DNA of 50,393 nt from Alphaproteobacteria bacterium. Lineage in GTDB: Bacteria; Pseudomonadota; Alphaproteobacteria; Micavibrionales; Micavibrionaceae. Where the stretch lies: contig RZZS01000010.1 of the NCBI GenBank assembly GCA_009929775.1, positions 1-50,393 on the forward strand. The letters are read 5' to 3'. A program made the translations under genes and the position numbers. Below the pieces are notes generated by a model. It was not told the origin of the DNA, did not search any database, and saw only the letters and a list, made by a program, of their open reading frames with translations. Below, piece after piece: positions 1-8,886 of the stretch (the stretch's first letter is position 1; each line of letters opens with the position of its first letter).

Positions 1-28
1 CCGATGGAACCATCTCATGGACCATCGG
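1..28. repeat. Short inverted repeat at the window edge
   Basis: The seven-base arms ccgatgg (1-7) and ccatcgg (22-28) are perfect inverted repeats around a 14-base spacer. The element sits at the very edge of the window in the island, so its context is cut off. It could be an operator, an insertion-sequence end or chance. The rest of 29-180 holds no recognisable gene. Confidence 0.25.
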
Positions 29-180
29 CAGGCAGAGAGGCATTAGCATTTCGTGACGAACACGCCGTTCCGCTCCCGGAACGTACGTCGTCGCGCGTCA
101 TCGTGCATAAGGGCTACAAGGGTTTCCGGCATTTTGTGGGAGGGTTGGGTTTGCCACCTCCACAAAGGAGAAACGCCCTT

Positions 181-354
181 ATGGAACCCGTCGCCTATCG
201 CATCCGCGAATTCTGCCGGATATATGTCATCTCCCGCACCGCCCTGTACCGCGAAGTCAAGGCCGGCCGCCTGCGGATTTTAAAACCCGGAAAACGCAGC
301 CTCATCGAGCGCGCGGAGGCTGAAAGATTGTTTGCTTCGCTCAGGGAAAAGTAA
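181..354 (+). CDS. Excisionase/AlpA-like helix-turn-helix protein
   Basis: A 57-residue DNA-binding protein. The start is ATG 181, chosen because caaaggag lies about 9 bases upstream and homology-like sequence begins there; the open frame continues upstream without meaning. Residues about 6-45 fit the MerR-like/excisionase HTH fold: an aromatic-rich helix (YRIREFC), then SRTALYREVKAGRL as recognition helix, then the KPGKRSLI wing. Proteins of this type act as phage or island excisionases, or as activators of integrase genes. It lies in an island with an integrase remnant, which fits such a role, but the partner integrase here is broken. No operon partner follows. It could equally be a small stand-alone regulator. 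Confidence 0.7.
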   Translation: MEPVAYRIREFCRIYVISRTALYREVKAGRLRILKPGKRSLIERAEAERLFASLREK

Positions 355-544
355 GCATCCAGTGAGCCTGCGAGTTTGCCGGCTGAAGGATGCTTTTGCG
401 CATGTCCGAGATAGAATGCTGCGAGTCATCAAAGTCCAGGACCGTGAAACCCATGACGTTTGGCGCGGCATGAAAATCTCAACAAAAATCAACCTAAAAA
501 AAGCGCACACATAATCATCAGTCGGCGCTCGTTCGAAAGGGCCT

Positions 545-716
545 TCAAAAGATTGACGGCAACATCAGATTGACGGCAACATCAATATTTTTTTCTATCT
601 CATGAAAATCCATACCAAAGTCGTTCCGTCCTGCCCTGACCGGGCCGCGCACGATCAGCGCTGGCATCGCCGATGTGCCGTCCAGAACCCCGGATTTTCG
701 TGTGACCTTTTGTCAT
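545..716 (-). pseudogene. Degenerate copy of an island gene (left of parDE)
   Basis: Reading the minus strand from the ATG at 716, the beginning resembles the start of the gene copy at 1482. Both begin ATGAC and both reach a TKSG(I/V)L(E/D) stretch, but this copy has lost about five bases and is frameshifted against its ATG. From about 700 down to the TGA at 545-547 a different frame is open, encoding KSGVLDGTSAMPALIVRG and continuing to NLMLPSIF. The 3' end includes a perfect 17-base tandem duplication (551-584). I do not recognise the family. The parDE pair lies between this copy and the other. The region 355-544 to its left shows nothing I can support. Confidence 0.4.
551..584. repeat. Perfect 17-bp tandem duplication
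   Basis: gattgacggcaacatca occurs twice head to tail (551-567 and 568-584) with no mismatch. It lies in the last codons of the degenerate minus-strand gene copy. Because 17 is not a multiple of three, it would shift the frame of anything translated through it. Confidence 0.9.
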
Positions 717-783
717 GAAACTCCCCATGGCGTCGAAAGATTGCAGGGTTGACGGGAGTCGGATGCACCCCGGAAGAATTTTC

Positions 784-813
784 TTGCCCTACGGTAGCAA
801 TATTTACTACCAT
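784..813 (+). promoter_or_regulatory. Putative parDE promoter with operator-like inverted repeat
   Basis: TTGCCC (784-789) and TACCAT (808-813) are separated by 18 bases and could be -35 and -10 boxes. Between and over them lies ggtag (793-797) ... ctacc (807-811), a perfect 5-bp inverted repeat with a 9-base centre. ParD-type antitoxins bind such palindromes over their own promoter to autorepress. The site is 20-50 bases upstream of parD. The -10 match is only moderate. Confidence 0.4.
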
Positions 814-834
814 GGAAACAGGAGGATATTGACT

Positions 835-1110
835 ATGGCAAACGTCGAAAAGGTGAGTGTCGCGCTGACGCCGGAGATGCTGGCGGTCGTGCGCGAGGCC
901 GTCGAGAGCGGCGAATATGCGTCCAGCAGCGAGGTCATGCGCGAGGCGCTGCGGGAGTGGAAGCGGCGACGGGCTCTGGAGCGGAAAGAGGTCGAGGAGC
1001 TTCGGCGACTGTGGGAGGAAGGCCTGGCGAGCGGTCCGGGGCGTCTTGGCGACATGGCCGCGATCAAGGCCGAAGCGCGGCAGCGGTTTGTCGAGGCGCA
1101 AGGAACTTAG
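835..1110 (+). CDS. parD: ParD-family antitoxin
   Basis: A 91-residue antitoxin of a type II toxin-antitoxin pair. The ATG at 835 follows a strong aggagg 9 bases upstream; an earlier in-frame ATG at 715 lacks one. The N-terminal half is the ribbon-helix-helix DNA-binding domain (KVSVALTPEMLAVVREAV, then SSSEVMREALREW), which should dimerise and repress the operon. The C-terminal 45 residues are charged and probably disordered until they wrap the toxin. It is followed after 21 bases by the ParE gene, the standard order. The cassette sits in a decayed island and may be what keeps that island in place, which is inference. Confidence 0.9.
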   Translation: MANVEKVSVALTPEMLAVVREAVESGEYASSSEVMREALREWKRRRALERKEVEELRRLWEEGLASGPGRLGDMAAIKAEARQRFVEAQGT

Positions 1111-1131
1111 CAACCGGGAGCGTGAGGGACC

Positions 1132-1428
1132 ATGCCCACCATCCAGCGCACGGCACAGGCCGAAGAAGACCTGATCGACATCTGGCTCTATATCGCCCAT
1201 GACGATATCCGGGCCGCCGACCGGTTTCTTGACGAAATCGAGGAGAAGTCCCTTCTTCTCGCGGATCAATCTTCCCTTGGACCTGCGCGCCCTGACATTG
1301 CGCCGGGCCTGCGCTACTTTCCGGTGCGGCGGTATCTGATCCTGTACCGCCAAATCACCGGCGGCATTGAGGTCGTGCGCGTCGTGCATGGCGCGCGCGA
1401 TGTCCCGACGCTGATGGCGGACACGTAA
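1132..1428 (+). CDS. parE: ParE/RelE-superfamily toxin
   Basis: A 98-residue toxin of the ParE/RelE fold. Diagnostic segments are the N-terminal AEEDLIDIWLYIAHDD, the central GLRYFPVRRYLILYR strand pair and the ending IEVVRVVHGARDV, all typical of ParE. ParE toxins poison DNA gyrase; RelE-like relatives cut mRNA, and sequence alone does not settle the target. Length is normal and no damage is seen, so the pair looks functional. The gene is preceded by gtgaggga about 5 bases before the ATG. It is co-transcribed with parD. Confidence 0.9.
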   Translation: MPTIQRTAQAEEDLIDIWLYIAHDDIRAADRFLDEIEEKSLLLADQSSLGPARPDIAPGLRYFPVRRYLILYRQITGGIEVVRVVHGARDVPTLMADT

Positions 1429-1442
1429 GCCGGCGGTGGTTT

Positions 1443-1482
1443 CCAGAATCCCCGATTTCGTCCCGACCAGTTCGTCCGTCAT
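1443..1482 (-). pseudogene. Start of an island gene, cut off by the parDE cassette
   Basis: On the minus strand an ATG at 1482 follows agaggagggccacc, an excellent ribosome-binding site. It encodes MTDELVGTKSGILETT before running antisense into the end of parE. The same opening, frameshifted, recurs at 716. The simplest reading is a gene disrupted or duplicated when the toxin-antitoxin pair arrived. The remaining frame, open antisense to parDE, looks like a shadow and is not proposed as protein. Confidence 0.4.
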
Positions 1483-1508
1483 GGTGGCCCTCCTCTGGCC
1501 CCACAATC

Positions 1509-1530
1509 GTACATAACCTCCTTTATGTAC
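1509..1530 (-). promoter_or_regulatory. Inverted repeat with a Shine-Dalgarno sequence in its loop
   Basis: gtacataa (1509-1516) and ttatgtac (1523-1530) are perfect 8-bp arms around a six-base centre. On the minus strand that centre reads aggagg. This is just upstream of the truncated gene start at 1482. The right arm contains an ATG that opens an 11-codon frame whose TGA overlaps the ATG at 1482. It may be an operator or an mRNA hairpin controlling that gene. Confidence 0.45.
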
Positions 1531-1558
1531 CATTGATAGCACGGGCCGGGAGGTGGGC

Positions 1559-2008
1559 TCAAGACGGCAGAATTTTCGTGCACCCCTCGTCCGCGACGAG
1601 CCAGAGATTTTCCACCCGGCGGCACAGGCCGCGCCGCGCGCGGTAGCCGTTGACCTGCCGGAGCATGCCGAGATAGCTGTTGAGGCTCGCCGAGAGGTCC
1701 TGCAAGGCTTCCGGGTCCACGGGCGCGCCGTTCCGTTCCCAGGCGCGGATTTTCTGCTTGCAGCGCGAGAGCGAGCTGTTCCGGAGGTAGGTCCTTCCGG
1801 GCAGGATGCGAAAGCCCGTGAAGTCGATGCCTTTCTCGACCCGGTTGATCCATTTCTTGCGCGGATGCAGCGCGAGCTTCAGGCGCTCGCGCAGAAAGCC
1901 GTCGATGGCTTCGTACCAGCCGTTCAGCGCGTCCGGGTCCTCGTGGAAGAGGATCAGATCATCGACATAGCGCCCGTAGTAGCGCGCCTTGAGGTTATGT
2001 TTCACGAA
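1559..2008 (-). pseudogene. Reverse transcriptase, C-terminal fragment
   Basis: About 149 residues of a bacterial reverse transcriptase on the minus strand. They begin near FVKHNLKARYYGRYVDD, where YVDD (1958-1969) holds the two catalytic aspartates of the palm domain. After that come FLRERLKLALHPRKKW, GIDFTGFRILPG and the thumb-like ASLNSYLGMLRQVNGYR ending. The pattern is that of group II-like or diversity-generating-retroelement-type enzymes, more than of retrons. The fingers and the first palm motifs are missing: upstream of 2008 the frame turns into antisense of an IS630 transposase. No template repeat, variable repeat or accessory gene of a diversity-generating element was found. It cannot be active as it stands. 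Confidence 0.75.
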
Positions 2009-2264
2009 GCATCCCCGCTTCCACTTCCATTTTACGGCCACTTCGGCCTCCTGGATGAATGCCGTTGAAGGGTTCTTCTCGAAACTTACGAAAAAACACC
2101 TCAAACGCGGCGTCTTCAAAAGCGTTCCGGAACTTGAAGAGGCCATTATGCGCTTCATCGAAGAAAAAAACCAAAACCCCAAACCATTTGTCTGGACCGC
2201 TGATCCGCACGGAATTATCGAAAAAATCAGCCGCGGGAAGCAAGCGTTGGAATCAATCCACTAG
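2009..2264 (+). pseudogene. IS630-family transposase, C-terminal remnant
   Basis: The frame from about 2009 encodes the end of an IS630/Tc1-type DDE transposase: PRFHFHFTATSASWMNAVEG, then FFSKLTKKHLKRGVF, then NPKPFVWT. This is the last catalytic block; the glutamate of MNAVE is the expected third acidic residue. The first two thirds of the gene are missing and the 5' boundary coincides with the break in the reverse transcriptase. An ATG at 2056 exists, but the homology begins upstream of it. The right end of the element should fall between 2265 and about 2330; I could not identify its terminal repeat. Confidence 0.8.
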
Positions 2265-2396
2265 ATCACTAACTATTTTACATGAGACAACGGCCTAACT
2301 CTGCGTAAGGCTGTCGTTCTCGACCAGCGCCACATGGGACTCTCGGCCCGCTCCTTTTTTCTTGCGATTTCCGTAAAAACCACTACCATTGGGCGC

Positions 2397-3338
2397 ATGG
2401 AAACTAACGAGTCAGTATTCGCGAATACGGCAAACATTTACCTGCGCCGCTGGGGATGCGATCAGGACGGCGAGGCGATGACGACCCATTCGAGCTTGCT
2501 GCTCCCCGTCATTCGGGCGAATGTCCCTTATATGCTTAAGATCGTCCGCCCGGACGATGACGAGGCACATGCGGGCGACATGCTCGCCTTCTACGGCGGG
2601 CGCGGGGCAGTGAGGCTTGTTGAGCGTGACGGGCCGGTTCAGCTTCTCGAGCGGGTCATCAGCGACGCAGCGGAGGAAAGCCTCAAGAAAATGGCCGTGC
2701 GCGGCCGGGACGACGAGGCGACACAGATCATTTGCGACGTGATCGAAAGGCTGCACGAGACGGCAGCGGACACAAAGCAGGTCCCTGCGAACCTGAAACC
2801 GTTCCGCGAGCGGACGCAGGAAATGAAAGAGCTCCTCTCCGAAGGCCGCGTGCAAGAGGAAGACAAGCCTTTGATCCTCAGTGCTTGCGCACTGACCGAC
2901 GAATTCATCGTGCAGGCGCAGGACCCCGCGACCATTCTGCACGGTGACATTCATCACTATAACGTCCTGCACAGCGCGGAGCGCGGCTGGCTGGCTATCG
3001 ACCCGAAAGGCTACATCGGACCGCGCGCCTATGAATATGCCCCCGCTCTCTGTAACCCGACGCTGCACACGAATATCGTTGCCGATCCGACCCGCATGGA
3101 CCGCCGCGCCGCGATCATGGCGGAGCATTCAGGACTGGAAAAGGATGAGCTGCTTCGCTTTGCGTTCGTACATGCCTGTCAGGTCGCGGCATGGTGCCTG
3201 TCGACGCCAGACCAACGTTACTGGCTTGCATGCGCCCGCACAGCGGCAGGCCTTATGTCTGACGCGAGCCGTCCACAAAAAACTTCCCTCCAGTCGCCCC
3301 GATATCCCAAAAACGGCCCCGCAGCGCCGCTGGCTTAA
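2397..3338 (+). CDS. APH(6)/hydroxyurea-type phosphotransferase
   Basis: A 313-residue small-molecule kinase of the aminoglycoside-6/hydroxyurea phosphotransferase family (APH_6_hur). ATG 2397 (METNESVF) is preferred over ATG 2334 because the family fold starts soon after it. Visible motifs are LRRWGCDQDGE and the LLPV...MLKIVRP nucleotide-binding strand with its lysine. Later come the Brenner motif HGDIHHYNVL (catalytic Asp and Asn) and AIDPKGYIGPRAYEYA (metal-binding Asp). Relatives inactivate streptomycin or hydroxyurea by ATP-dependent phosphorylation, but many chromosomal members have unknown substrates, so resistance is not proven. It stands alone between an IS remnant and an integrase remnant, suggesting horizontal arrival. 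Confidence 0.8.
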   Translation: METNESVFANTANIYLRRWGCDQDGEAMTTHSSLLLPVIRANVPYMLKIVRPDDDEAHAGDMLAFYGGRGAVRLVERDGPVQLLERVISDAAEESLKKMAVRGRDDEATQIICDVIERLHETAADTKQVPANLKPFRERTQEMKELLSEGRVQEEDKPLILSACALTDEFIVQAQDPATILHGDIHHYNVLHSAERGWLAIDPKGYIGPRAYEYAPALCNPTLHTNIVADPTRMDRRAAIMAEHSGLEKDELLRFAFVHACQVAAWCLSTPDQRYWLACARTAAGLMSDASRPQKTSLQSPRYPKNGPAAPLA

Positions 3339-3445
3339 TTTGTCATACATCCTGTTATCATACCGCTTTCGCCTCCGGCCATTCCGTGGCAGATCGGGCG
3401 AATGAGCAGCGCACAGCAAACGGCACCGACGGCCTTCGTCACCAT

Positions 3446-3806
3446 TCACCGCATTAGGCCCTCTCGCAACGACACCGGGCTGAGAGCGGCCACCCTCCCT
3501 GTTTCGGCGGCTTGAATATACCGCGCCCAACCCTCCATCATCTCGCGGCGTTTGTCGAACAGGTCGCTGCGGTGGTAGGCGGCCTCGACCTTGTCGCCAA
3601 CCGCATGGGCAAGGGCGGCTTCGGCGACTTCGCGGGGGGTAGGATGTTTGTTCCGCGCACCAGTCACGGAAAGACGAACGAAAGCCGTAAACCGTAATGT
3701 CGGCGCGGTTCATCCGCCGGAGCAAGACCAGCGTCGCCATGTTGGACAATGGGCGGTCCACTTTCTGTCCGGCGAAGACATAGCCCTCGTTTTGACTCCC
3801 TCCTTC
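3446..3806 (-). pseudogene. P4-type tyrosine integrase, broken C-terminal fragment
   Basis: About 120 residues from the catalytic end of a tyrosine recombinase. One frame gives EGYVFAGQKVDRPLSNMA and GFRSSFRDWCAEQTSYP; the next frame continues with PREVAEAALAHAVGDKVEAA and Y-HRSDLFDKRREMM. The frames meet at a run of six G on the plus strand (3634-3639) where five would restore one continuous frame. The usual HGFRS of the catalytic box reads YGFRS here. The AAY segment supplies the likely nucleophile tyrosine. The N-terminal two thirds are missing: a stop lies upstream at about 3807. No tRNA or attachment site was seen nearby. 3339-3445 and 3807-3898 hold nothing else recognisable. Confidence 0.8.
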
Positions 3807-3898
3807 CCGCCATTATCTGCGCCATCCCCATCCCTCCTCGGGTGGGTCACAGATTGCGCGAAAAGGCATCCCGGATGAAAAAGTGTTGTCCCTGGCTG

Positions 3899-5329
3899 TT
3901 ACGCGCTTCCGGTTAGCGATGTCCCGCACCCAAGGTTCGCAACGATGTCCTGCGCAAATGCGGAAAGAGTATCGTCGCGTGCGCCCATGACGACGATGCG
4001 GTCGCCCGGACGCGCTTCCCCGATCAAGCGCTGGCGGATCGCATCGCGATCGGGAATGAACAGTGCCGTTCGCCCTCTTTCTGCGACCGCTCTGACGATA
4101 TCCGCCGATGAAATATCGCGCGCCGCCGTGCCGCCCGCGTAAAAGATTTCCGGCATGATCAGAACGTCTCCTTCCTCAAGCCCGTGGACGAACGACTCGA
4201 CGAGTTCATCGCGCATCAGACGGGTCGGGCCAAAACCGTGGGGCTGAAAGACCGTGAGCACCCGTCCCGGCGAAAGATGCAGCGTCGCCAATGTGGCGGC
4301 GATCTTGTCTGGATTGTGCCCGAAATCGTCAAACACGGCGATTCCTCCGCGTTCGCCAACACGCTCAAGTCTGCGTTTTGTACCGGAAAAATGAGACAGC
4401 GCCGATGCTGCCATATCAGGGGAAACGCCCGCAAGTACGCATGCGCCAATTGCCGCCAGCGCGTTACTGACGTTGTGCATACCCGGAACATTCAGGGTAC
4501 ACGGCACACTACGTCCCTTGTACGTGACCAAAAAGGACGGACGCTGCCCCGCATCCCGGATGTCCACGGCCCGGAGCGCCGCGTCTTCGTTCCACCCGAA
4601 CAGCAGGTCGCCGGGGCGGGCGATCGTTCGCGTCTCCGGGCAATCGCCGTTCAGGACGGCACCGGTCCGCGCCCGACCGATGAATGCCGAGAATAGCGCG
4701 CGCAGCTCCGGCAAAGGCTTGTGGTCCAGAGAGATGTTATTGACGATTGCGACTTCCGGTTCGTAGAGCGCGATGGAGCCGTCGCTTTCACAGGTCTCGG
4801 CAACCATCCACGGCCCCGAACCGGCATGAAACCCCAGCGGCACGCCCCTGTCGTCCACGAAATCGAGCATATGGCCGCCATTGACGACGGTCGGGGAAAA
4901 CCCGGCCTCCTGCAGGATGACGCCAATCATGGCCGTGACGGTCGTCTTGCCGCTGGTTCCGCCAACTGCAACGGATTTTGAAGAATTGACAAGGCCTGCG
5001 AGGATATCCGCGCGACTGACGACGGGAATGCCAAGCCGACGCGCCGCCTGGACATCGGGAATCGCCTCCTCGACCGCGCTTGAAACGACAAGCGTTCCGG
5101 TTTTCGACGACACGCCACTTCCGTCCTGCGGAAATAAACGAATGCCGCGCCCCTCGAGCGCGGCGAAGCGGGAAGCGGCCGGGTCCTGATCCCGACTCCG
5201 GTCCGAGCCGCTGACCTCGCATCCCTTGAGCGCGAGAAGGCTGGCGAGAGGCATCATTCCGCTTCCGCCGACTCCGCAGAAAAAGAACGACCGACTACCG
5301 CTCAAGACATGGCCGCCCCCGGAGACCAC
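3899..5329 (-). CDS. Mur ligase, MurC/Mpl-like
   Basis: A 476-residue ATP-dependent Mur ligase. Domain 1 has the UDP-binding GVGGSGM (about residue 20). Domain 2 has the ATP loop GGTSGKTTVTAM (about 122), AETCESDGS and NNISLDHK. Domain 3 has NVPGMHNVSNALAA and FDDFGHNPDKIAATL. MurC adds L-alanine to UDP-MurNAc; Mpl re-attaches recycled tripeptide. Here the usual MurC PHRYTR block reads HGFGPTR, and the gene is far from any division cluster, so a second, specialised ligase is likely and the substrate is open. The start is GTG 5329, which shares one base with the TAG of the upstream lipoprotein gene, implying translational coupling. Confidence 0.8.
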   Translation of the reverse strand: MVSGGGHVLSGSRSFFFCGVGGSGMMPLASLLALKGCEVSGSDRSRDQDPAASRFAALEGRGIRLFPQDGSGVSSKTGTLVVSSAVEEAIPDVQAARRLGIPVVSRADILAGLVNSSKSVAVGGTSGKTTVTAMIGVILQEAGFSPTVVNGGHMLDFVDDRGVPLGFHAGSGPWMVAETCESDGSIALYEPEVAIVNNISLDHKPLPELRALFSAFIGRARTGAVLNGDCPETRTIARPGDLLFGWNEDAALRAVDIRDAGQRPSFLVTYKGRSVPCTLNVPGMHNVSNALAAIGACVLAGVSPDMAASALSHFSGTKRRLERVGERGGIAVFDDFGHNPDKIAATLATLHLSPGRVLTVFQPHGFGPTRLMRDELVESFVHGLEEGDVLIMPEIFYAGGTAARDISSADIVRAVAERGRTALFIPDRDAIRQRLIGEARPGDRIVVMGARDDTLSAFAQDIVANLGCGTSLTGSA

Positions 5330-6183
5330 TACTGCGTTTCCTCCAGAAAGAGCTCTAGCGGAGTTGAGTCGGCCTGCGGCGCTTCAAGAAATTCCTGCCG
5401 CGTTTCCGGAGCGTAAGGAGGCGGCCGGACGCCAGACAGTGCCTTGCGGGGACGGAAAACCCCGGGATTATACATCTGCGTAAGATCCTCCGCGCTGGCA
5501 GCTCCCGCACCAGGCATCCCGGGAAGTGACGATCGCGGAGTCGGTGGCGCGGATGGAACAAAGTCGCCGGATTCGGCTAATCCTGAATCGTCGACTGGCG
5601 GCACATCCCTTCCAAAGTCCGTCGACTCACCCGGTAAAGCGCCGGACGAATCGTCGCTAGTCCCTTCATCCCGGCGCCTGATCGGGACAGTCTGCCTGTC
5701 CGCGTCTTCTGAAAGCGCGGGATGGCCGGAGCGAAATTCTTCGAGACCGCTCCCGAGCGGCGGCAGGAGATCGTCCGCGTACCGCGCCGGCATCGGCATG
5801 GGTTGAGCCGGAACATCGCGGAAGTCGACGGTCACGAGTTCAGGATACACCCACATCGCCCCGGAGGCCCTGTCGTAGGCTAGTCCCGGCAGGAGGGCAG
5901 TACCGATGTTAAGGAGGAGCGTTTCGGCGGAAACCGGCTCGATCATAACCGACTTTTCACGGTTCCCGGGCGCCTTGCAAAATAACTCGAGCGTGTCCCC
6001 CGCCTTCGAAATCTGCACGGATTCCGGCGGTCGCACCGTATAGCGCCACTCATCCGACTGGATATAGCAAAGAGCGTTCTCGGCGCCGGGCGTTTCGACT
6101 GTGATCGATTGGGTCTGGCCTTCCATAACGGACGCGCAGGAACCAAGCATCAGACTGCAGCAGAGGGCAAAAAGGCGTTTCAT
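5329..6183 (-). CDS. Predicted lipoprotein, proline-rich C-terminal half
   Basis: A 284-residue lipoprotein I do not recognise by name. The signal peptide MKRLFALCCSLMLGSC ends in an LGSC lipobox, so cysteine 16 should be lipidated. Residues about 20-125 look like a compact beta-rich domain (QSITVETPG ... GAMWVYPELVTVDFRD). The remaining 160 residues are Pro/Ser/Asp/Gly-rich and probably disordered. It overlaps the start of the MurC-like ligase by one base, so the two are made together, pointing to an envelope role. There is no clear ribosome-binding site before ATG 6183. The intergenic stretch to clpB (6184-6309) shows no clear terminator. Confidence 0.75.
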   Translation of the reverse strand: MKRLFALCCSLMLGSCASVMEGQTQSITVETPGAENALCYIQSDEWRYTVRPPESVQISKAGDTLELFCKAPGNREKSVMIEPVSAETLLLNIGTALLPGLAYDRASGAMWVYPELVTVDFRDVPAQPMPMPARYADDLLPPLGSGLEEFRSGHPALSEDADRQTVPIRRRDEGTSDDSSGALPGESTDFGRDVPPVDDSGLAESGDFVPSAPPTPRSSLPGMPGAGAASAEDLTQMYNPGVFRPRKALSGVRPPPYAPETRQEFLEAPQADSTPLELFLEETQ

Positions 6184-6309
6184 TCAAGGATTCCCGCGAA
6201 ATGGAAGAGCGTATATTCGCTTTATTTCTAAAGGAAAAACCTTCCCCTGTCCACGCGCAGGCGAAGATAGCAGGGCAATCGCCCGAGCACATCAGGACAT
6301 CATTTATCG

Positions 6310-8886
6310 CTATCTTACCTCGAAATGCAACTCGTCGCCGTGAACGGAAACGATCACTTCGCTATTCTCCGAAACTTTTCCCTCAAGAATCAGCTGCGCA
6401 AGCCGGTTTTGGACGGATGACTGAATTACTCTTTTCAGGGGCCGCGCTCCATAAGCAGGGTCATAGCCCTTGTCCGCAAGCCACAACCGGGCCTTGTCGT
6501 CCATCTTGAGAACGATCCGCCGCCCGGCAAGGAGCTTCTCCAGATGGCGCAACTGGATATCGACGATCCCGGCCATCTGCTCACGCCCGAGGCGGCTGAA
6601 CAGAAGAATTTCGTCAAGTCGGTTAAGAAATTCGGGCCGGAACGCCTGGCGGACAACATTCATGACCGCATCGCGCACGTCTTCGACGTCCTCCCCGTCT
6701 TTTTGCGCGACGAGATATTCCGAGCCGAGGTTCGAGGTCATAATAAGGACGGTATTGGCAAAATCGACTGTGCGCCCCTGCCCGTCCGTAAGCCGACCGT
6801 CGTCCAGGACCTGAAGCAGGATATTGAACACATCCGGGTGAGCCTTCTCGATCTCGTCGAACAGGACGACCTGATAGGGTCTGCGCCGAACCGCCTCGGT
6901 CAAGGCCCCGCCTTCCTCGTAGCCCACATAGCCTGGTGGCGCGCCAATCATGCGCGATACAGAATGTTTTTCCATGTATTCCGACATGTCGAGCCGAACC
7001 ATGGCACTGTCGTCGTCGAAAAGAAATTCCGCGAGCGCCTTGGTCAGCTCAGTCTTGCCGACGCCGGTAGGCCCAAGGAACAGGAAGGACCCGATCGGTC
7101 GCCGCGGATCCTGAAGGCCCGCGCGCGAGCGACGAACTGCATCGGCAACAGCCTTGACCGCATCGTTCTGACCGACAACCCGGCGCGTTATGTTCTCCTC
7201 CATACCGAGAAGCTTCTCGCGTTCGCCCTCGAGCATCTTGTCGACGGGAATGCCCGTCCATTTGCTAACGATCCCGGCAATGTCGTCCTCGGTGACTTCC
7301 TCGTTGATCAGGGCTTTTTCGGCAACCGTCGATGCCTCGTCGAGCTTCCTCTCCAGTTCCGGAATGACCGAGTATTTCACCTCGCTCGCCTTTGCCCAGT
7401 CGCCTTCCCGCTCTGCCCTCTCCAGATCGCTGCGGGCGCGGTCGAGTTCCTCGGTCCAGCGCTGGCCCGCGTTCAGCTTTTCTTTCTCGGCCATCCACTG
7501 CGATGTCAGGTCCGCTGCCCGGGCCTCAAGATCGTCAAGTTCCTCCTCAATACTGCCCAGGCGTTCTTTCGACGCCTTGTCGCTTTCCTTCTTCAGGGCT
7601 TCCTGTTCGATCTTGAGCTGAATGATCTTGCGGTCGAGTTCGTCGATGGCCTCGGGCTTGCTGTCCACCTGCATGCGCAGGCGGGAAGCCGCCTCGTCAA
7701 CGAGGTCAATCGCCTTGTCCGGCAAAAACCGGTCGGTGATATAACGATTCGAAAGATTAGCCGCCGCAACGATCGCCGAGTCGGTCACACGGACACCGTG
7801 GTGGACCTCGTACTTTTCCTTCAGACCACGGAGTATGGAAACCGTATCCTCGACCGTCGGTTCGGAGACGAAGACCGGCTGGAACCGGCGGGCCAGCGCC
7901 GCGTCCTTTTCGATATGCTTGCGGTATTCGTCAAGTGTCGTCGCGCCGACCATATGCAGCTCTCCGCGCGCCAGCGCAGGTTTGAGCATATTCGAGGCGT
8001 CCATCGCCCCTTCTGCCTTTCCCGCGCCGACCAACGTATGAAGCTCGTCGAGAAACAGCACGATCTCACCCGATGCCGCCCGGATTTCATCGAGGACAGC
8101 TTTCAGTCGCTCCTCGAACTCCCCGCGATACTTCGCCCCGGCAAGAAGCGAGCCAAGATCGAGCGCCATCAGGCGCTTGTTCTTCAAACCTTCCGGAACG
8201 TCCCTGTTGACGATTCTCTGGGCAAGCCCTTCGATAATGGCCGTCTTGCCGACGCCGGGCTCGCCGATCAGAACCGGATTATTCTTGGTCCGGCGTGAGA
8301 GGACCTGGATGGTACGGCGGATTTCCTCATCCCGTCCGATCACTGGATCGAGCTTCCCCTCTCGGGCAATCGCCGTCAGGTCGCGAGCGTAGCGATTGAG
8401 CGCGTCAAATTGTTCCTCCGCACCCGGCGTATCGGCCGTGCGCCCCTTTCGCATGTCATTGATCGCCTGATTGAGGCGGGTCGGGTCAATACCGCAGTCT
8501 TCGAGAAATCCCGCAACATCGGCGCGCTTCTCGATGGACATGGCCTGCAGGATTCGTTCTGCGGTAACGAATTTATCGCCCGCTTTTTCTCCGAGACTTC
8601 CCGCGCTGTCGAGAATCTTGGCGAGATCTGTGGAAAGCCGGAGCTGTCCGGCGCCGGAGCCGCTGACGACCGGAAATTTCGCCAGTGCCTCCTCGACCTC
8701 GCGGCGGAGACGTTTTAAATCGGCCCCTGCCGCCACCAGCAATCGGACGACAACGCCGCCCTCTTCGTCGAGCATGACGCGCAAAAGATGCTCGGGCTCC
8801 AGAGACTGGTGGCCGGAGCGCATCGCAAGCGTCTGGGCGGCCTGCAAAAACCCCTTCGTCGTATCGGTAAACCTGTCGAAATTCAT
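6310..8886 (-). CDS. clpB: ClpB disaggregase
   Basis: An 858-residue AAA+ chaperone that, with DnaK, pulls proteins out of aggregates. ATG 8886 (MNFDRFTD) is the family start; an in-frame ATG at 8928 would place the terminator hairpin inside the gene. The N domain is followed by AAA module 1 with [10 protein letters not shown] (about 200) and FLDELHTL. A long coiled-coil middle domain follows (about 400-520). AAA module 2 has [10 protein letters not shown] (about 605) and [13 protein letters not shown]. The C-terminal [15 protein letters not shown] sensor-2 region is intact. Length is normal and nothing is damaged. A heat-shock-type promoter lies immediately upstream. Confidence 0.98.

Follow-up and report, generated by a model that had tools for sequence, protein, structure and literature searches.

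At the left end of the window (the whole stretch of 50,393 nucleotides that was analysed), the 3' part of a minus-strand reverse transcriptase (RT) gene meets the 3' part of a plus-strand IS630-family transposase gene (Table 1). To the left of the RT stub lies a ParD/ParE toxin-antitoxin pair, recognised by Pfam, and to the right of the IS630 remnant follows a plus-strand gene (2334-3338) for an APH(6)-family kinase (Pfam APH_6_hur, 3.1e-51), which stays below the NCBIfam cut-offs for named resistance enzymes. Further along, a minus-strand integrase-like C-terminal piece (3129-3761) can be put together by eye over two frames (ORFs 3129-3761 and 3446-3667). Of the five plasmid records listed as matches of the shorter ORF, four are annotated integrases, at 46-54% identity, and Pfam reports no integrase family for either. 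Chromosomal-looking genes, judged by eye, extend from about 3,900 onward. GC content is nearly the same on both sides of this boundary (0.587 for positions 1-3890 vs 0.592 for the rest), and the island of which the preliminary description spoke therefore rests on gene content, not on composition.

Table 1. Features at and around the point where the two gene remnants meet (window positions)
Feature	Position	Strand	Basis
C-terminal 149 codons of a gene for an RT assigned to the DGR type	1559..2008	minus	YVDD and everything after it; 61-70% identity to relatives
RT/IS630 joint	2008..2010		0-1 base ambiguity; compared with the flanks of nine RT relatives and of three IS630 copies
3' end of IS630-family transposase gene, about residues 276-359 of 359	2010..2264	plus	NCBIfam transpos_IS630 and three complete plasmid copies
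Right terminal inverted repeat of the IS630 element	2241..2264		overlaps the transposase stop; 20/24 bases as in the right ends of L076 and L077
DNA right of the IS end, not RT-like	2265..2333		tblastn

Read on the minus strand from 2008 to 1559, the RT remnant is free of stops over 149 residues, from FVKHNLKARYYGRYVDD through CTKILPS, and keeps the YxDD catalytic motif (RYVDD, fragment residues 13-17). The stretch is indeed an RT, as the preliminary description had proposed on the strength of an intact YVDD. It aligns with residues 225-373 of the 373-residue RT of Micavibrio sp. UBA6139 (L013) at 70% identity, and with residues 225-373 of the 375-residue RT of a genome of the same family (G031; loci L003, L004 and L014; contig JAIXWE010000085.1) at 68% identity over the length of the stub. 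The earlier reading of the fragment as the C-terminal third was right that only the C-terminal part is kept; the share, encoded by the 3' part of the gene, is about 40% of the full protein. Everything before residue ~225 of the relatives is absent, including, by alignment, the motif IGNLTSQ and the palm stretch LKADVANFFNSID. The missing part comprises RT motifs 0-4, with the (I/V/L)GxxxSQ sequence and the first catalytic aspartate. The diagnostic SQ motif thus falls in the lost part; IGNLTSQ occurs in 9/9 of the full-length relatives aligned, including the viral L024. In Schillinger et al. 2012 (PMC3521204), (I/V/L)GxxxSQ in region 4 is given as a motif of the RTs of diversity-generating retroelements (DGRs).

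General profile libraries are weak or ambiguous on the class of RT. Pfam RVT_1 matches it below cut-off, the group II model TIGR04416 reaches 3.5e-8 (32.9 bits, for a cut-off of 300), and PHROG 1423, 'Reverse transcriptase', matches at 1.1e-31. Several defence RT models of PADLOC, a library that may or may not include a DGR RT model, also match, the best being RT_UG17 at 2e-10. Among solved structures the best match is 8ub7 (E 1.8e-12; a group II RT follows at 0.0045), which we take to be a DGR RT structure, the entry itself reading 'Reverse transcriptase'. The class of RT is decided by the relatives. In a tree whose input included eight of 51 viral loci, the stub falls among its close relatives with fork supports of 93 and 94 SH-aLRT, and no branch with support of at least 95 holds it in this quick tree method. 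With close relatives that belong to DGRs, the stub is assigned to the DGR RT clade, the placement resting on relatives at 61-70% identity and on a tree of moderate support. Membership of the group II-intron or defence (DRT/retron) RTs is not indicated, the matches being weak and the loci of close relatives being DGRs. Of the three origins that the preliminary description had considered for the full-length relative (diversity-generating, group II-like or defence-associated), the loci of the relatives point to the diversity-generating one.

In GTDB genomes, 11 loci matched the stub: ten carry RTs at 61-70% identity, and the eleventh (L023) is at 34%. The ten close loci, labelled alphaproteobacteria, Desulfosarcina, Bryobacterales and Micavibrio, are not all independent: L014 is the G031 locus, and the RTs of L021 and L022 are identical. 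Nine of the ten have a full-length RT (373-484 residues, counted from the first ATG), and the tenth, in L017, is cut by a contig end. More distant RT matches, below 60% identity, were obtained in 44 phage and 37 plasmid records. From the 51 viral loci, L024 was checked for repeats and L024-L026 were checked for Avd and translated. Among the 14 relatives translated (L013-L026), short RTs occur only in L017, L025 and L026, each beginning at or beside a contig end, and none of the 14 starts naturally at the point where the stub starts. Across 58 genomes of the family and order, an RT match was found in two, the present genome and G031. This count, together with the taxonomic scatter of the relatives, suggests gain of the DGR by transfer and its easy loss.

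The loci of these relatives have the anatomy of DGRs. Eight of the ten close loci have a repeat pair next to the RT, in a search that covered six of the ten in part only; no pair was found in the short contigs L017 (3,066 bases) and L021 (3,961 bases). The mismatches between template and variable copies fall at template adenines in 5/6 cases in L013, 12/13 in L014, 12/14 in L015, 15/15 in L016, 10/10 in L018 and 11/11 in L022, in 11/15 and 10/11 in two partly overlapping pieces of L019, and in 28/40 in the viral L024, where untrimmed ends are included. Binomial p values against the adenine content of each template lie between 3.3e-10 and 5.7e-3, the latter for the weaker L019 piece. These mismatches were counted on the cores of the repeat pairs, wider untrimmed pairs diluting the adenine bias with unrelated flanks, and L020 was left out of the count for an assembly gap in its variable copy, the other 58 bases of which are identical. 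The adenine-biased pair sought as a signature of DGRs was thus recovered in the seven countable close loci, with differences mostly at template adenines, but not in positions 1-8000 of the window. Read on the strand of the RT, the template repeat precedes the RT gene in six of the eight relatives that have such a pair. An Avd gene is present in 11 of the 14 loci L013-L026, including nine of the ten close loci, and in the three that are without it (L017, L025 and L026) the RT stands at the contig start. All seven Avd proteins of the Avd alignment score above the Pfam bAvd cut-off. The gene that carries the variable repeat encodes an Lcl_C domain above the Pfam cut-off in L015 and L019 and below it in L003, L020 and L022; in L013, L016 and L018 it has no Pfam match.

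In contrast to the stub, the G031 locus holds a whole system, with the 375-residue RT, bAvd (PF22296, 3.9e-17) and a 153-nt template/variable pair with the 12/13 mismatches at template adenines given above; its RT is encoded on one strand, the repeats and the target on the other. The same difference in completeness separates the stub from the loci of Micavibrio sp. UBA6139 (L013 and L020), Desulfosarcina cetonica (L015) and the Bryobacterales MAGs (L016 and L019), each of which combines a complete RT with a repeat pair and Avd. Their RTs are 66-70% identical to the stub, and the tree puts the stub among them. The earlier suggestion that a fuller retroelement was once present here was right, and the comparison of the fragment with other RTs that had been proposed led to relatives at 61-70% identity in loci of this anatomy.

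The joint between the two remnants can be placed almost to the base. RT homology, by tblastn with eight relatives, ends exactly at 2008 in seven cases and at 2005 in one, and among the 10 plasmid matches listed (with 101 further records) blastn homology to IS630 begins at 2010 in six annotated copies and at 2009 in one unannotated copy. RT and IS630 homology thus meet with a gap of about 0-1 base, as the preliminary description had observed in placing the break at about 2008, and sequence shared at the joint amounts to about one base at most. The plus-strand ORF is open from 1989, with transposase-like codons from ~2010 only. Translated, 1989-2264 matches profile positions 246-297 of 299 of NCBIfam transpos_IS630 (E 1.9e-11; 44 bits, for a whole-protein cut-off of 100) and is 63% identical to residues 269-359 of a 359-residue transposase, window position 1989 corresponding to residue 269. 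Compared with complete IS630 elements, the joint lies at about codon 275 of 359, and what remains is about the last 84 codons, the 3' quarter of the gene. Two complete elements, on Methylobacterium radiotolerans pMRAD03 and Nitrobacter hamburgensis plasmid 1 (L076 and L077), resemble the remnant in the C-terminus of the transposase (63-64% identity) and in the right terminal repeat, but have a complete 359-residue transposase, whereas in the copy in the window the left end and roughly 275 N-terminal residues are missing.

The right end of the IS630 element is retained. Its 20/24-base match at 2241-2264 has no second site in the window that reaches 18 in that orientation (50,000 start positions scored). 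The ends of L076 and L077 were inferred from their own inverted repeats, and a third copy, L078, has no clear repeat pair. Beyond this end, tblastn with eight full-length RTs at E up to 10 gave no match in the adjoining DNA up to 2333, the nearest on this side being at 2408-2361 with E 9.6, at chance level. The earlier description, in which an IS630 insertion beheaded the RT, is not supported by these observations. After a simple insertion, one end of the IS would stand at the joint and RT sequence would continue on the far side of the IS; neither is seen, the joint lying deep within the transposase gene and no RT sequence following 2264. A 24-base pattern spanning the joint had 0 matches in viral contigs.

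The lost parts were looked for in the window and in the genome assembly. The N-terminal ~224 residues of the RT were found in neither, and neither the missing IS630 head nor another IS630 copy of the same type was found in the assembly, which consists of 190 contigs, so that absence from it is not proof. Nor was a second DGR RT found there; the only other RT match, a distant RT of 442 residues (C42:345-1160, L008; 29% identity, E 1.7e-8), is by eye group II intron-like. The search for a template/variable repeat pair (80 nt, at least 75% identity) in window 1-8000, on a contig that starts at base 1, gave none, and a blastn of window 1-3900 against the records of 16 relatives, intended for a relic of the template repeat, matched only inside the RT. 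The Avd family profile had 0 matches at E 1 in the present genome, as against 1.8e-73 for the positive control G031, and the best Pfam bAvd match there, at 0.684, is below cut-off and belongs to a gene adjoining leucine-synthesis-like genes (named by eye). Two Avd proteins and eight proteins of target or neighbouring genes, compared with the window by tblastn for relics of such genes, likewise had no match at E 0.1. The components of a functional DGR cassette, namely a repeat pair, Avd and a complete RT, are accordingly not assembled at this locus.

Seven Lcl_C matches on the contigs C67, C185 and C176, five of them over cut-off, were considered as orphan target genes, the domain being of the same type as in the targets of several relatives. 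They were rejected as evidence, since 14 of 57 other related genomes match Lcl_C at E 1e-5 and the DGR-bearing G031 has no match at this threshold. Repeat pairs on these three contigs show no clear adenine bias (at most 8/15 mismatches at A, and 8/16 at T), the paralogues differing throughout. On C67 (L085:4250-7637), two double Lcl_C proteins and one shorter protein are paralogous and diverged, and no template was found. The Lcl_C genes on these contigs could be former DGR targets.

An RT without the N-terminal motifs missing here cannot polymerise. With motifs 0-4 gone and neither a template repeat nor Avd found, mutagenic copying is therefore impossible for the stub. Decay of the stub is low: of 53 columns in which nine relatives agree, it shows a private change in 2, and each of those nine does so in 1 to 3 of 52-54 columns (L024 left out). 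With no excess of odd substitutions and no sign of long decay, the deletion, and with it the loss of the DGR, was probably recent.

The locus is very probably the dead remnant of a DGR, in which one deletion between divergent RT and IS630 genes removed both heads. An IS630 copy, oriented divergently, would have lain on the upstream side of the RT gene, and a single deletion with one end in the RT gene and the other in the transposase gene would have taken the N-terminal part of the RT, the intervening DNA and the IS630 head. The intact system would have copied the RNA of the template repeat with random errors at adenines and used these copies to rewrite the variable end of a target protein, which in several relatives is lectin-like (Lcl_C). 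Since the genes at the joint are divergent, both heads are absent from the assembly, the joint lies inside the transposase gene and the right end of the IS is kept, one deletion accounts for everything, and we infer it to be the simplest account. Against this reading count the position of the SQ motif in the lost part, the lack of a repeat pair in window 1-8000, tree support below 95 and the defence RTs that are the best matches in PADLOC.

That the RT and IS630 remnants abut would also be expected if the IS630 element had inserted within the RT gene, and later deletions had taken the left part of the IS and the N-terminal part of the RT gene on its right. Insertion of IS elements in DGR RT genes has been published, with disruption by insertion elements in Acaryochloris marina MBIC11017 (PMC3521204). 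However, with the right end of the IS kept and no RT sequence beyond it, this course of events demands at least two deletions, one of them at the right edge of the IS, and it is improbable beside the simpler single deletion. A joint created in the assembly, by merging two unrelated pieces near a contig end, is more doubtful again. The 190 contigs, a contamination of 3.72% and the distance of 2 kb between joint and contig end would agree with it, as would the scant sequence shared at the joint and the unequal GC content of the two parts (0.492 for IS630 vs 0.631 for RT), but the RT part and the IS630 part have one match each in the assembly and thus offer no repeat that would invite a mis-join, and the ParD/ParE pair and the integrase-like piece nearby are as expected in a real region of mobile-element turnover.

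It is hardly credible that the stub is expressed, either as a stand-alone protein or fused to sequence antisense to the transposase, for example as an RNA-binding RT thumb retained after loss of the DGR. The frame is open through the joint for 233 codons, with in-frame methionine codons in the antisense of the IS630 part, and the private changes of the stub lie within the range of its relatives. The upstream part of this frame is, however, mere transposase antisense, a recent truncation explains the low decay equally well, and the truncated form occurs in none of the 14 translated relatives except by a contig end.

Under the preferred reading, a single deletion in a former DGR, the stub is an ordinary fossil, a further example of the truncated DGR RTs already published. 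RT genes of DGRs truncated by transposon insertion, by nonsense or by frameshift mutation are described by Schillinger et al. 2012 (PMC3521204). Its inactivated DGRs resemble the present locus in having RT genes shortened by a mutation event, transposon insertion included, but differ in the intact VR/TR repeats described beside the broken RT, whereas here neither a repeat pair (window 1-8000) nor Avd (whole assembly) was found. A literature search for 'diversity-generating retroelement' with 'Micavibrio' gave no match, and a search on remnants and pseudogenes had no DGR term among the matches listed. The kind of retroelement that once stood here is settled as a DGR, and the lineage appears to have lost it, apparently recently; from the remnant itself there is no function to learn.

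Several features of the relatives' loci deserve mention in their own right. Two of these DGRs are 'inverted' (L014:469-2587 and L018:5329-7440), with the RT on one strand and Avd and the template and variable repeats on the other, an arrangement of the RT on the opposite strand that was described in 2012 as a rare event (PMC3521204). In G031, the target gene is preceded (L004:11249-19532) by an 879-residue protein that resembles AAA ATPases weakly (Pfam AAA_22 at 2.8e-4, under the cut-off) and by a 953-residue protein without a Pfam match, a pair that by eye is MoxR/vWA-like; MoxR/vWA pairs have been linked with DGR-diversified conflict systems (PMC10907252). The L013 locus of Micavibrio sp. 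UBA6139 holds a second Avd copy split over two reading frames (1152-1509), in addition to the intact copy at 2979-3323 on the minus strand. Adjoining the same DGR, and distinct from its variable-repeat gene, a minus-strand gene (3392-6325) encodes a 977-residue protein with an inverse autotransporter beta-domain and a FecR domain, and with Lcl_C at its C-terminus. Near both DGRs of this organism lies a similar phage-type integrase of 429/430 residues on the minus strand (L013:6823-8112 and L020:7253-8545), which suggests that these DGRs travel on integrative elements.
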